Source: Nitrospirales bacterium (GTDB lineage: Bacteria > Nitrospirota > Nitrospiria > Nitrospirales > UBA8639). Taken from it: 64,000 nucleotides of DNA. Positions within the stretch are counted from its first letter, which is position 1, and each line of letters opens with the position of its first letter. The DNA lies in NCBI GenBank assembly GCA_031315865.1, contig JALDRJ010000002.1, positions 3,384,001-3,448,000 of the forward strand, written 5' to 3'. Made by a program: the position numbers and the translations under genes. Below the pieces are notes generated by a model. It was not told the DNA's origin. It searched no databases and saw only the letters and a program-made list of their open reading frames with translations. Positions 44,452 to 51,227 of this stretch are shown here, in pieces.

Positions 44452-45711
44452 CTACCCCTTCATGTTCGACAAGATTTGCGTCGACCATTCAATGGCTTGA
44501 ATGTAGGCATTTTGAATGACCGAGGGATCTATCTGAGCACATTGCATGTCCTTCCATGTCCCCTGTTCAAATGCAATCACACATTCCAAGACCTCTCCTA
44601 ACAACCCAGATCGATCCAATAATGCATGACGGACTTCTTGGGATAGCGGCAAAGAGTCGAGGACATCCGATAATTCACAATCAAAAAACCCATCGAGGAC
44701 AGAGAAAAGACCGATCGTAAAGAATTGATCACTCCCATTCTGTCCCATGGCCCGTCCAAGCTGTTCACACATATGAGCCCGAACGGTCGCCGTCACTAAC
44801 AATTCATATGGCTTATCTTCCATACTGACCAAGCTCATGAGCGTCACCCACATTCTGAGCTTATCGATCCCGACCATACAGGCAGCCTGCCCGATCGAAT
44901 CGACCTGTCGTGGTAACCCGCAATACGCTGAGTTGACGTAACGCAGCAATTTATGGCTGAGAGAGACGTCGCTTTTGACCTTCCTCGCAATCTCAGATAT
45001 TTCAACATCACGCTCTTGCAACTTCGCGAGTAACATGAGGATCGCCATCCGGTTCGCCGGAACACGTGCGCCAGCAATGATCTTGGGCTTACAGAAAAAA
45101 TATCCTTGAAAATAGTCAAACCCCAGAGATCGGCAAAATTCGAAATCTTCATGGGTCTCGACCTTTTCGGCCAGCAGCTTGACAGGGTACTGTCGAAGCC
45201 AGAGCACGTGTTCAGCAATTTCTTCGTGCGAAAGGGCCATCACGTCAACCTTGACCATGTCAGCAATTTGAACCAGGGGCTGGAGTGACGGGTGATAGAT
45301 AAAGTCATCCAAGGCAATCGTGTATCCCTGGCTGGAAAGATCGGTTAACGCTTCGATGATCTCATCCGTCGGTTCGATGTCTTCCAGCACTTCTAACACG
45401 ACCCGATCTTTAGGCAGTGTTTCGCAGAGTCGGTTCACGAGAAGATTCGAGGTCATGTTGATAAAAGCCAATCGGTTGCCCACGATATTTTCAAGGCCAA
45501 TCTCGAGCATCGTGTTCAACATGACATTGGCCGTGGCAGAATCACCATCGACAATAGTTGCCTGATTGCCGTCTCCGCCCCGGTACAACAATTCATAGCC
45601 AAAGACATCCACCTTCTGGCCGTAGATGGGCTGACGCCCAACAAGTGCCGAGGTCTGCGCTGGAATAGAGGTATGCGTGGTGGCCATACGGGTAAAAACG
45701 CTCACATCCAC
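44452..45711 (-). CDS. EAL-HDOD (YuxH-type) signalling protein
   Basis: 419 aa. The N-terminal EAL-like domain (about 25-215) has GYELLYRG at the EAL position, IALDDF, KVDVMAL and FQGYFFCKP, so the metal-ligand signature is altered and diguanylate phosphodiesterase activity is doubtful. The C-terminal HDOD domain (about 220-400) has ISEIARKVKSDVSLSHKLLRYVNSA and lacks HD catalytic residues. Such proteins regulate stress, motility or c-di-GMP signalling through binding. GTG start without a clear ribosome-binding site; ATG at 45687 is an alternative. Confidence 0.9.
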   Translation of the reverse strand: MDVSVFTRMATTHTSIPAQTSALVGRQPIYGQKVDVFGYELLYRGGDGNQATIVDGDSATANVMLNTMLEIGLENIVGNRLAFINMTSNLLVNRLCETLPKDRVVLEVLEDIEPTDEIIEALTDLSSQGYTIALDDFIYHPSLQPLVQIADMVKVDVMALSHEEIAEHVLWLRQYPVKLLAEKVETHEDFEFCRSLGFDYFQGYFFCKPKIIAGARVPANRMAILMLLAKLQERDVEISEIARKVKSDVSLSHKLLRYVNSAYCGLPRQVDSIGQAACMVGIDKLRMWVTLMSLVSMEDKPYELLVTATVRAHMCEQLGRAMGQNGSDQFFTIGLFSVLDGFFDCELSDVLDSLPLSQEVRHALLDRSGLLGEVLECVIAFEQGTWKDMQCAQIDPSVIQNAYIQAIEWSTQILSNMKG

Positions 45712-46310: not shown

Positions 46311-47210
46311 TTAGGTTTCTGCCGCGACAGACATAGGCTGTATGGGGATTTCGACATGGACTCGCGCACCATGTTTCGGCTTGCTCTTGATCTTGAGTCG
46401 TGCGCCAATTTTTTTTGCCCGGGCGACCATATTGCCCAGACCCTTTCCTTGCGCTTCAACCAAATCCACCTCGAACCCCTGTCCATCATCCAGCACCTCC
46501 AGAACAACTGTCTTGTCGTCGCTTGTCAAGGACACACGGGCTTTTTTGGCTTTGGCATGCTGCTGGCTGTTGCTGACCGCTTCTCGGGTGATATGCATGA
46601 GCTGAAAGCTCTGATCTTTGGTGAGATATCCCGCGGACTTGGGATCAATCGAGAGTTGGACTGGCAATTCACCCTCTTCAGTCATCTCCTCAATAAGCGC
46701 TTGGAGTGCAATGCCAAAGTTATTCCCGACGACTAACCCCGACTTCATGTTTTCCAAGAATTCTTGAATGAGTTGGGTAAGGACTTGCACCTGCTCGACG
46801 ACCATATGCATAGGTTTTCCAACTTCCAGTGCAATCTGCATCTGTTTGAGTGAACGTAATTGATCCTCGTGGTGTTGTTGGATCACCATCGTTCGATCTT
46901 TGAGGACTTCTCGAAGTTGCTCGTTGCGTGCATACGCCCGGAGTAAGGGCGCGATCAATGCGACACCAGCGACCATGAACAATGAGATGATCAAACTGAC
47001 CAACGCATGCGCCAGTGCGATAAATTGCCCTTCTCCGTCGTGAGTCGTATCGAATATCTGTATCATGGCCTGACTCGACAAGAGAAATAACGCTCCGCCA
47101 ATCAAGACCCATGGCAGCGTTTTCTTGGTCTCTCGAATTAAGCGTAGCGCAAAAAGAGCGGCCAATACATAGAGGGCGACTGTGAGAGAGAAAATAATCG
47201 TGGAGGTCAT
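46311..47210 (-). CDS. membrane sensor histidine kinase of the NarX/LiaS-like group, orphan
   Basis: 299 aa. Three N-terminal membrane helices (about 5-23, 35-52, 68-90), a helical linker (about 100-160), and a HATPase domain with N-box REAVSNSQQHA, LDDGQGFE and GKGLGNMVARAKKIGARL. The expected HisKA_3 H-box (ELHDxxGQ) is not clearly present: the nearest candidate is QQHHEDQLRSLKQ. The ATP-binding half is intact. No response regulator is adjacent. It may still phosphorylate a distant regulator. Confidence 0.85.
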   Translation of the reverse strand: MTSTIIFSLTVALYVLAALFALRLIRETKKTLPWVLIGGALFLLSSQAMIQIFDTTHDGEGQFIALAHALVSLIISLFMVAGVALIAPLLRAYARNEQLREVLKDRTMVIQQHHEDQLRSLKQMQIALEVGKPMHMVVEQVQVLTQLIQEFLENMKSGLVVGNNFGIALQALIEEMTEEGELPVQLSIDPKSAGYLTKDQSFQLMHITREAVSNSQQHAKAKKARVSLTSDDKTVVLEVLDDGQGFEVDLVEAQGKGLGNMVARAKKIGARLKIKSKPKHGARVHVEIPIQPMSVAAET

Positions 47211-47915: not shown

Positions 47916-49418
47916 TCAGCGGGGGGGTGACTCACGAACTGACGTCTTCATCTCATGAATGGCTTCGCGATAGTAGCGGACGAACCAATCAGCATTGGAG
48001 GAATCGGCTAGGATGATTTGGCGTTGATCAAGTGTGTTCGCCCAGTAAAGATAGGTCAATGGTCCTGATTCCCCCAGCTCAAGATGCATGGCGCGTCCAT
48101 CGGACGATCGATAGGTCTCTTCTTCCTGAAGACATCGGGCAGGCAATCTCTCCCAAATGAGTTGTGCTGCAGGGGTATGGTTCTCATAGCATGGGATAGG
48201 ACCCTGACTGTCATCGCCTTGTCCATCGCCCCACAATGTTCGAATCGTTGTTTGCAAGTCAGGATCACGCTTGGCCTTCAACCGCTCAAAGTATTCGACG
48301 ATGATGGATTCATCTTCTCGACTCGCCAATATCATTCCCTGAAAATCCATCCCAACAGAGACGTAGCCGTACACGATCGCTTCGCGCCATATTCCCCGGT
48401 ACGTTTGAAACGATTGAGAATGTGCCTCGGGCGGCTCCGAGGTGCACTCTTCTTGTATGGCACCGATAGCGATGGCCATCCGTCGAGCGGTTTTGCCAGT
48501 ACACGTATACACACTTTGTCCCTTCGGCCATTCAGGGTTCTCATCCCAAACAGCCCGAACCTCGGAAGGCCTGCGACCCACTTCATACAACGGACCGTCT
48601 TCCACTCGTTCGCCAAACGAGCCGAAAGTCAGAGGGAAGGGAACACTGAGGTTATGGAAACCTCTTGCCGCAAGTGCGCGTTGCAATACGATTCTTCGTC
48701 CGAGGTGTCGGGCTTTTTCGCAGAGTAACATTTTGCCATCTTCCACTAAAATTCGACTCAGCTCATTCAAACGCGCTCCAATTCCCGTTTCCGCCTCTAT
48801 CTGATGCTGCAAGGCTGAATCCTGACGGCGATGAAACGTGTTCCAGTCATCACTGCACAAGCCTGGGGAATCTTCCGCCTGAAACAGCGCTTGAGTGCAT
48901 ATGACACCATCAAACATGCCGGTTAGTGAATCGTGTGGAAGGTGAGCGTACACAAAACGCACGTTGGGTAATTGACGTCGTGTGGCTTCATGGGTGGCGA
49001 TGGCAAGAGATGCCGAGGATCGATCAACACCGACAAATTGCACATCAGGGAACAAGGTGGCCCAAAACGTGGTCAGAATGCCTACCCCACAGCCAAAATC
49101 AAGCACCTGTCGTGTGGAGGCTAACCGCTTCGCGATCGCGAGCCCGGCGGCGACGAAATAATCATAACGTTGACTGTATAAAATAGGCAGAATTTCTGGG
49201 GAGGCAGTCAAGTCGTAGAAGCGAATATCCGCGCTAGGATCGCCTTGCTTCAGCCTGGATGTGGCGCAATCATGCAAAGACTCAAGTTGCTCTTTGGAGA
49301 GCACCGTGCGCTGCCAGTTGAAGTAGGCCGGTTCATCGGTAAACCGCTTGAGTCCCCACGAAGCCAGATGTTCGGAAATCAGACGCGAATGATGAGTGTG
49401 CGAGAGAGAGTCCTTCAT
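47916..49418 (-). CDS. large SAM-dependent methyltransferase
   Basis: 500 aa from the ATG at 49418 (a GTG at 49433 is in frame). The N-terminal part holds a class I fold with motif I VLDFGCGVGILTTFWA (about 105-120), acidic residue in FVGVDRSSASLA and motif FDGVICTQALF. The other 300 residues form an uncharacterised domain with WxxxxVYGYVSVGMDFQG-like strands. Substrate unknown. It lies 103 bp downstream of the ProA-like gene on the same strand, but no shared pathway is evident. Confidence 0.8.
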   Translation of the reverse strand: MKDSLSHTHHSRLISEHLASWGLKRFTDEPAYFNWQRTVLSKEQLESLHDCATSRLKQGDPSADIRFYDLTASPEILPILYSQRYDYFVAAGLAIAKRLASTRQVLDFGCGVGILTTFWATLFPDVQFVGVDRSSASLAIATHEATRRQLPNVRFVYAHLPHDSLTGMFDGVICTQALFQAEDSPGLCSDDWNTFHRRQDSALQHQIEAETGIGARLNELSRILVEDGKMLLCEKARHLGRRIVLQRALAARGFHNLSVPFPLTFGSFGERVEDGPLYEVGRRPSEVRAVWDENPEWPKGQSVYTCTGKTARRMAIAIGAIQEECTSEPPEAHSQSFQTYRGIWREAIVYGYVSVGMDFQGMILASREDESIIVEYFERLKAKRDPDLQTTIRTLWGDGQGDDSQGPIPCYENHTPAAQLIWERLPARCLQEEETYRSSDGRAMHLELGESGPLTYLYWANTLDQRQIILADSSNADWFVRYYREAIHEMKTSVRESPPR

Positions 49419-49521
49419 AGCACATGAAGCCACAAGACACGACCGAGTGGAAGGAATATCGAACGCTCGTCCCCAGTCGCCCGTGATACGACTCTATCGT
49501 TCCTAGGGGGATACCCAGGGC

Positions 49522-50877
49522 CTAGAACTTTGATGACAGCATCATGGCATCTAGATACGCCTGAGGGACTGGATGGGGTTGCTGTAATTGGCCAGTTCCC
49601 AACGCCACAAACTTTTCAGTCGTGAGCGCGTCCAGGGTCAAGGGGCCCCGAGCGTGAAAAGGCGTTGTACTCATGCCAAGTTCTGGCCCTAAGCCCATCT
49701 GCTCTCCTCCATGAAGACGCGTCGACGCGTTGACCATGACAGCACTGGAATCAACTTCTTGAACGAACCGCATGGCCGTTTGATAGTTTCGCGTCACGAT
49801 CGTGTCAGTATGGCCGGGGCTAAATTTTTCAATATGCCCAAGGGCTTCTTCAAGATCGGTCACGATTTTAATATTCATCGCCATGGACTGATATTTCTCT
49901 CCCCAATCGTTCTCCACGGCATCTTTAATCCCCAAATGGCCGGTCATCTCCATGATTCCCATCATGGAGACCGTTTTGGGACATCCAGTTAACGTGACCT
50001 TAAACTCCTCGAGCAATCGACGCATGAGTCCAGGGAGAATATGTCTGGCCACTTTTTGATGTATCAAGACCGTATCGACGGAATTCGAGGCTTCTGGGTC
50101 TTGGACTTTGGCATTGACCACTATGGTCTGAGCCAGTGGGATGTCGACTTCTCCGTCGACATAGACATGAGAGATGCCACCGTCATATCCCAGCACCGGG
50201 ATTTTGGCTTGCCCCATGATACCTTTCCGCATCGAAGTGTTTCCTCGTGGAATGACGGCATCGACATATTTCACCAATCGAATCAGCTCAAGGGCCGCTT
50301 CCGGTTGCGGGCGATCGACAAATGTCATGGCCCCCTCCGGCAAACCAGCTTTCGTCCCAGCTGTGCTCAGGCAATCGGCAATGGCTTTGTTGGTATGAAA
50401 CCATTCCGATCCACCTCGATAGATACACACATTGCCAGTCTTGATACACATAGCAAAAGCCTCGACGGCGACATGAGGGGCCATGTCGGAAATAACGGCC
50501 ACAACACCAAGCGGAACGCGCATTCGACCTACCTGCATCCCATCATCGGTTAGCCACAACCTGGACACCTCTCCTATGGGGTCCACAGATTCAACCACTC
50601 GCTGAAACCACTCTTCCATACGAGTGAAATCGTCTTCACTGACCCGAATACGGTCGACGGCTTGACGATAGATTTGTTTATCAATCTCTTTGGAAATCGC
50701 CTCTAAATCGAGACGGTTGGCTTCTAAGAAACAGGATTTGCTTTCCTGAAAAGCGATTAACATTGCCTCAAGGGCGCACGTTCTTTTCTGGCTTGAGAGT
50801 TTGGCTAGTGGTCGTGCGGCCATTTTGGCTTTTTGAGCTAGTCCTTGAATATATAGTTTGACAGGGACTTCTACCAT
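49522..50877 (-). CDS. glutamate-5-semialdehyde dehydrogenase (ProA) homologue with catalytic Cys replaced by Ser
   Basis: 451 aa. ProA family by GGSEWFHTNKAIADCL, PRGNTSMRKGI, IPVLGYDGG, VDSSAVMVNASTRLHGGEQMGLGPELG and HARGPLTLDAL. ProA reduces gamma-glutamyl phosphate through a cysteine in (V/T)-C-N-x-x-(E/D)-T. Here the matching stretch reads KVQDPEASNSVDTVLIH, with Ser264 (codon TCG on the minus strand) where the nucleophile should be. A second Cys-to-Ser change lies in GGISHVYVD. Either a non-catalytic or a different-chemistry homologue. Strong AGGAGG before the ATG suggests it is expressed. proB is not in the window, so no gene symbol is given. Confidence 0.85.
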   Translation of the reverse strand: MVEVPVKLYIQGLAQKAKMAARPLAKLSSQKRTCALEAMLIAFQESKSCFLEANRLDLEAISKEIDKQIYRQAVDRIRVSEDDFTRMEEWFQRVVESVDPIGEVSRLWLTDDGMQVGRMRVPLGVVAVISDMAPHVAVEAFAMCIKTGNVCIYRGGSEWFHTNKAIADCLSTAGTKAGLPEGAMTFVDRPQPEAALELIRLVKYVDAVIPRGNTSMRKGIMGQAKIPVLGYDGGISHVYVDGEVDIPLAQTIVVNAKVQDPEASNSVDTVLIHQKVARHILPGLMRRLLEEFKVTLTGCPKTVSMMGIMEMTGHLGIKDAVENDWGEKYQSMAMNIKIVTDLEEALGHIEKFSPGHTDTIVTRNYQTAMRFVQEVDSSAVMVNASTRLHGGEQMGLGPELGMSTTPFHARGPLTLDALTTEKFVALGTGQLQQPHPVPQAYLDAMMLSSKF

Positions 50878-51227
50878 TGTTAAATACCTCCTCTGCTCTC
50901 ACTTCATGATTGCGAATAAACCCGTCGACTATACCGAGGCGAAAACGAGTGAGTCAAAGTCTGCTTGGCCACTGAAGCATCAATATGTTCGTGATTCTGA
51001 AAACAAGCTCGCTTGAATTAGCATGGTCGCTATGCTACCCTTTCTAAGTTTGTGAATATTAAAGTATTTTAAGTCTATTGCGGCGTCAGGAACGCCCGTA
51101 GACGATGGACCATGAACAGGTGGCGGTAATGACAAGCAAAGGGTTTCATTTTACGATTCAATAAATTGGTTATAGATGACTGATTCTGTCTAAACCAACT
51201 CATGAAAGGGGGTGGGAAAATCTTATC
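50878..51227. other. 350-bp upstream region of rpsB
   Basis: It must hold the rpsB operon promoter and leader. Two dyads are visible: TAGCAT-N7-ATGCTA (51019-51037) and a GGCGT-CAGGA-ACGCC hairpin (51082-51096). The rpsB operon is often controlled by S2 binding its leader; these dyads could take part, but no family match can be made by eye. No gene seen. Confidence 0.4.

Follow-up and report, generated by a model that had tools for sequence, protein, structure and literature searches.

A ProA paralogue without the catalytic cysteine, linked to a methyltransferase gene in two families of Nitrospirales

Introduction

Pseudoenzymes of the ALDH16A1 type are members of the ALDH superfamily without the nucleophilic Cys, and METTL3-METTL14 is a methyltransferase with an inactive partner, which in that case is a degenerate methyltransferase. 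The mechanism of ProA is covalent and goes via a catalytic Cys (C598 of Drosophila P5CS) (PMC8963878, PMC11061531), and R712 and D715 of Drosophila P5CS bind G5P (PMC11061531). ProA and P5CS enzymes assemble as dimers, tetramers and filaments, and in bacteria a complex of ProA with ProB is presumed (PMC8963878).

The gene described here, which we call ProA2, lies in a window (the whole stretch of DNA that was analysed, 64,000 nucleotides) of a contig from a Nitrospirales bacterium. Like ProA (TIGR00407, PRK00197; PDB 1o20, 4ghk, 8zok) it has full-length homology to the family and a predicted fold of the same kind (TM about 0.8), and it keeps the Arg that binds G5P and the Asn after the Cys position. 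Unlike ProA, it belongs to a group that has Ser, Ala, Thr or Pro for the Cys, that has lost the Asp of STRxxDG and the Asn of ESRPN, that adds a near-invariant C-terminal tail and an insertion containing MTGH, and whose linked gene is a methyltransferase instead of proB. The pseudoenzymes of the ALDH16A1 type share with ProA2 the missing nucleophile, but they are eukaryotic, belong to another subfamily with another architecture, and have no methyltransferase link. METTL3-METTL14 is a possible analogy, a catalytic SAM methyltransferase with a non-catalytic partner, although the partner would here be a protein with the ALDH fold.

Results and discussion

The ProA2 gene is found at 49522-50877 on the minus strand and encodes 451 amino acids. 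Family profiles, PDB matches and its place in a single clade of the tree make it a paralogue of ProA (glutamate-5-semialdehyde dehydrogenase), predicted to be catalytically dead as such. The homology runs over the full length and exceeds the NCBIfam cut-offs for the ProA family (417 bits against a cut-off of 289 for PRK00197, and 327.9 against 317.45 for TIGR00407). In the AlphaFold model, which has a pLDDT of 79 and is weak in the C-terminal third, the predicted fold is the three-domain fold of ProA, and the best PDB matches are ProA structures with TM 0.74-0.80. A ribosome-binding site, AGGAGGT, can be read at 50886-50892 (minus strand), 8 nt before the ATG, which agrees with the strong site noted in the first-pass annotation of this DNA. 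Further upstream, at 50928-50957 on the same strand, there is a candidate sigma-70-type promoter (TTGACT-18-TATAGT), which is a consensus match only, and the number of promoter-like sites around ProA2 is close to the shuffled expectation.

The first-pass annotation had pointed out that Ser264 (codon TCG, antisense cga, 50086-50088, minus strand) occupies the position of the catalytic Cys, and alignments with the structures from T. maritima (1o20), Burkholderia (4ghk), E. coli (8zok) and yeast (1vlu) all agree on this. Close orthologues of ProA2 also have Ser, so the residue is due neither to chance nor to a sequencing error. Residues were counted in 57 ProA2 and 45 canonical ProA proteins, all from different genomes, and the Cys is present in every canonical ProA and in none of the ProA2, which have Ser (23), Ala (19), Thr (10) or Pro (5). 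Ten further distinct ProA2, deep-branching members included, likewise have no Cys, which gives 0 of 67 in total. On the ProA2 tree the site has gone through at least 10 changes among these four residues. No other Cys has taken over the role in the structure alignments or in the conserved columns of ProA2, where an alternative was looked for; the other invariant Cys residues of the group, C144 and C299, both occur in canonical ProA too, and thus none has been relocated into the active site.

The neighbouring parts of the active site have been lost to a varying degree. The Asn of ESRPN, invariant in canonical ProA (45/45), is left in only one of the 57 ProA2, and column counts give His135 at this place in our protein (50473-50475, minus strand). 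The Asp of STRxxDG is likewise present in 45/45 canonical ProA and 1/57 ProA2; through this motif we mapped it as the equivalent of the G5P-binding D715 of Drosophila P5CS, and it is Gly390 here (49708-49710, minus strand). The Arg of the same motif, Arg387 in ProA2 (49717-49719, minus strand) and the equivalent of R712, is kept in all 57 ProA2 and all 45 canonical ProA, so that of the G5P-binding pair the Arg is kept and the Asp lost. In the same 57 proteins the Asp and Asn sites vary much as the Cys site does, and there are no changes at all at Arg387, Asn265 and Asp268, with the reservation that Asn265 differs in two deep-branching ProA2 outside this set. That the family signature is otherwise well kept is only partly right, since the equivalents of Asn135, Asp390 and Ser157, the last of which is also invariant in canonical ProA, are all gone from most ProA2. 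The lost Asn of ESRPN was also considered as the oxyanion Asn of ALDH, and this was rejected because the profile alignment sets the Asn of the ALDH motif NFP at a gap. At the other end of the protein, ProA2 has gained a tail without counterpart in canonical ProA, PHPVPxxYxDAMM in our sequence (49540-49578, minus strand; columns 434-446, invariant or near-invariant), which within the clade has the near-invariant form PHPVPxxYxDAxML.

That the ProA2 clade is dead as ProA, and that its chemistry of gamma-glutamyl phosphate reduction is predicted to be lost, is well supported by these substitutions. An altered chemistry by way of the Ser had been proposed, and it does not agree with orthologues that bear Ala, Thr or Pro, with many changes between them; Ala and Pro are unable to be nucleophiles, and Ser264 is therefore no replacement catalyst. 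ProA2 does pass the curated proA cut-offs of NCBIfam, which could be taken to mean that Ser264 stands in for the Cys as nucleophile in an otherwise normal ProA, or that the ordinary activity is kept, but with these residues in the orthologues, the loss of Asp390 and a canonical ProA in the same genome, this explanation is very improbable and close to refuted. It is less far-fetched, albeit still unlikely, that ProA2 is an enzyme of a different, Cys-free reaction, for example an NAD(P)-linked one with another substrate, in a two-step pathway with the methyltransferase. ProA2 has an invariant set of its own (including W159, T162, R217, G233, D268 and P354), the equivalents of Lys146, Arg211 and His237 are mostly kept, and the methyltransferase linkage would suit a small pathway. 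Against this, no one residue is fixed at the nucleophile position, constraint is relaxed at the Asp and Asn sites, and the covalent route of ALDH is excluded because some members have Ala or Pro.

The genome has a second ProA, as had been suggested, at G000:C2:3265364-3266602 (L003:8266-9606), which is 41% identical to ProA2 and has the Cys in the active site RPSTCN. There is one proB above the cut-off, far from both ProA genes, and ProA2 adjoins neither proA nor proB. One could imagine that ProA2 regulates proline synthesis, by mixed oligomers with ProA or by binding to ProB, and in this way tunes the flux or protects the labile glutamyl phosphate, with the link to the methyltransferase being secondary. 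The shared fold and origin, the invariant G5P-binding Arg, and the assemblies known for ProA and P5CS, among them the presumed ProA-ProB complex (PMC8963878), all fit such a role; the distance from proA and proB in this genome and the fact that the only constant neighbour is the methyltransferase speak against it, and we regard it as rather unlikely.

Among the sampled relatives, two families of the order (f1 and f3) hold both ProA2 and canonical ProA, and ProA2 is found in nearly every good genome of these two; in f2, f4 and every other family sampled from the phylum, canonical ProA is the only form. Three drafts with ProA2 have no full-length canonical ProA (G212, with a fragment of 26 residues only, and G217 and G234, with none), and we take these as assembly gaps because the single-contig genomes G014, G018, G053, G155 and G186 all have both genes. 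In a small f3 genome, G202, there are two matches of the canonical type (C7:1809-3062 and C14:23838-25091) besides one ProA2. The ProA2 profile separates the two groups in the phylum sample, where full-length ProA2 score 691 bits or more and canonical ProA 522 or less, and in a wider search of the order divergent or contig-truncated ProA2 score lower (e.g. 592 bits in G241 and 542 in G249). When exact peptides were scanned against GTDB genomes, they matched close relatives only, and such a scan lacks the sensitivity to rule out ProA2 in other phyla. In the literature we found nothing on a ProA paralogue in Nitrospira.

The ProA2 proteins group together as one clade, with a support of 100, in a tree made by a quick method. 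This clade stands next to the canonical ProA that f1 and f3 have, and its stem is long (0.55 changes per site). The simplest history would be that the gene was duplicated once in an ancestor shared by f1 and f3, when f2 and f4 had already split off, and that the copy changed fast before it became conserved. ProA2 is under strong purifying selection, with a median dN/dS of 0.13 versus 0.20 for canonical ProA (Nei-Gojobori, pairs with dS 0.05-1.6). It is thus a selected gene with lost catalytic residues beside a retained paralogue of the active type, as expected of a pseudoenzyme paralogue. The lost residues could also have been the mark of a decaying pseudogene or a sequencing error, but full-length frames in dozens of species, this dN/dS and the near-universal presence in two families refute that explanation, since ProA2 is conserved. 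The intact ProA2 confirms the first-pass annotation in this respect.

Immediately downstream and on the same strand, at 47916-49433 (minus), lies a gene for a class I SAM-dependent methyltransferase of 505 amino acids, with an uncertain GTG start. Pfam, fold, adjacency and co-occurrence identify it and its link to ProA2: it matches Methyltransf_31 (1e-11), Pfam matches are found in 17 of 17 members, and residues 34-290 have a confident SAM-methyltransferase fold in the predicted structure (Z about 19). The SAM-binding motif DFGCGVG (49080-49100, minus strand) is intact, with D112, G114, C115, G116 and G118 invariant, and both this DxGCGxG motif I and the acidic D137 after beta 2, also invariant, are those of the class. 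The same residues 34-290 match the fold of the class I enzymes DnrK and RdmB, but the identity is low (12-22%), there is no assignment at the family level, and the linked protein has an extra uncharacterised C-terminal domain. Pfam gives no match for this domain, residues about 300-500, in which the motifs YENH and YLYxANTxDQRQ are conserved. The f1 proteins are longer than most of those from f3, by about 100 residues.

In each of the 36 distinct genomes that were inspected, the first gene downstream of ProA2, on its strand, is the methyltransferase gene. The settings of the pair differ, f1 usually having it beside rpsB-tsf-pyrH-frr and f3 in other surroundings. The co-occurrence is as strict: of 198 genomes of the phylum, 56 have ProA2, and the methyltransferase profile matches these 56 and no others. 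In the genome G244 there are two genes for ProA2 (L158 and L168), each with a methyltransferase of its own beside it, and the second pair could be a duplicated unit or contamination (5% in this assembly). Two drafts without ProA2, G247 and G329, are also without a full-strength methyltransferase, G247 having a weak match of 49 bits to the methyltransferase domain. In the drafts G240, with a methyltransferase at a contig start and no ProA2 detected, and G288, with a truncated ProA2 at a contig end and no methyltransferase, the single genes stand at contig ends, and these cases therefore do not decide on the linkage. A search between the two genes revealed no terminator-like site on the strand that carries them. 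The gap between them is often 20-250 nt, and translational coupling can thus not be general. A mirror-tree comparison of the two proteins showed nothing that shared descent does not explain (partial r 0.11, a value reached in 2795 of 5000 permutations). Downstream of the pair in the window, on the minus strand, there are also a short histidine kinase (46311-47210) with predicted membrane segments and an ATPase part resembling NarQ/NarX, and an EAL-HDOD signalling protein (44452-45711).

We hypothesize, with moderate confidence, that ProA2 is a conserved pseudoenzyme that assists the downstream methyltransferase, either as a scaffold that binds a ligand or as an allosteric subunit. The regulatory paralogue suggested in the first-pass annotation fits with this, and the methyltransferase, which was not mentioned there, points to a specific partner. 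According to this model, ProA2 would have derived from ProA by duplication and given up the covalent Cys chemistry; the fold of ALDH and ProA, the Arg that binds G5P and some of the site would have been retained, and the new C-terminal tail added. Catalysis would be left to the methyltransferase, and ProA2 would supply stability, substrate presentation or metabolite sensing, with e.g. glutamate-type ligands or NADP(H), possibly docking on the methyltransferase through the tail. A physical complex of the two proteins, its ligand and the methylated substrate are what we infer from the linkage, which can also be compatible with a shared pathway instead of contact. More tentatively, and with some doubt, the pair may be a two-component system of a kind not described before. 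Its dead ALDH-fold protein would control the methyltransferase, or present the substrate to it, via the tail, and might sense a metabolite of the glutamate family or NADP(H).

Conclusions

ProA2 is predicted, from the lost active-site residues, to be a pseudoenzyme that belongs to a core amino-acid pathway and runs through a whole lineage of Nitrospirales, an order that includes major nitrite-oxidising bacteria. Automatic annotation would call the gene proA, and inferences on the proline pathway that are drawn from it would therefore be wrong. A probably dead ProA together with a methyltransferase is a testable pair, and it has been retained across two families of the order.
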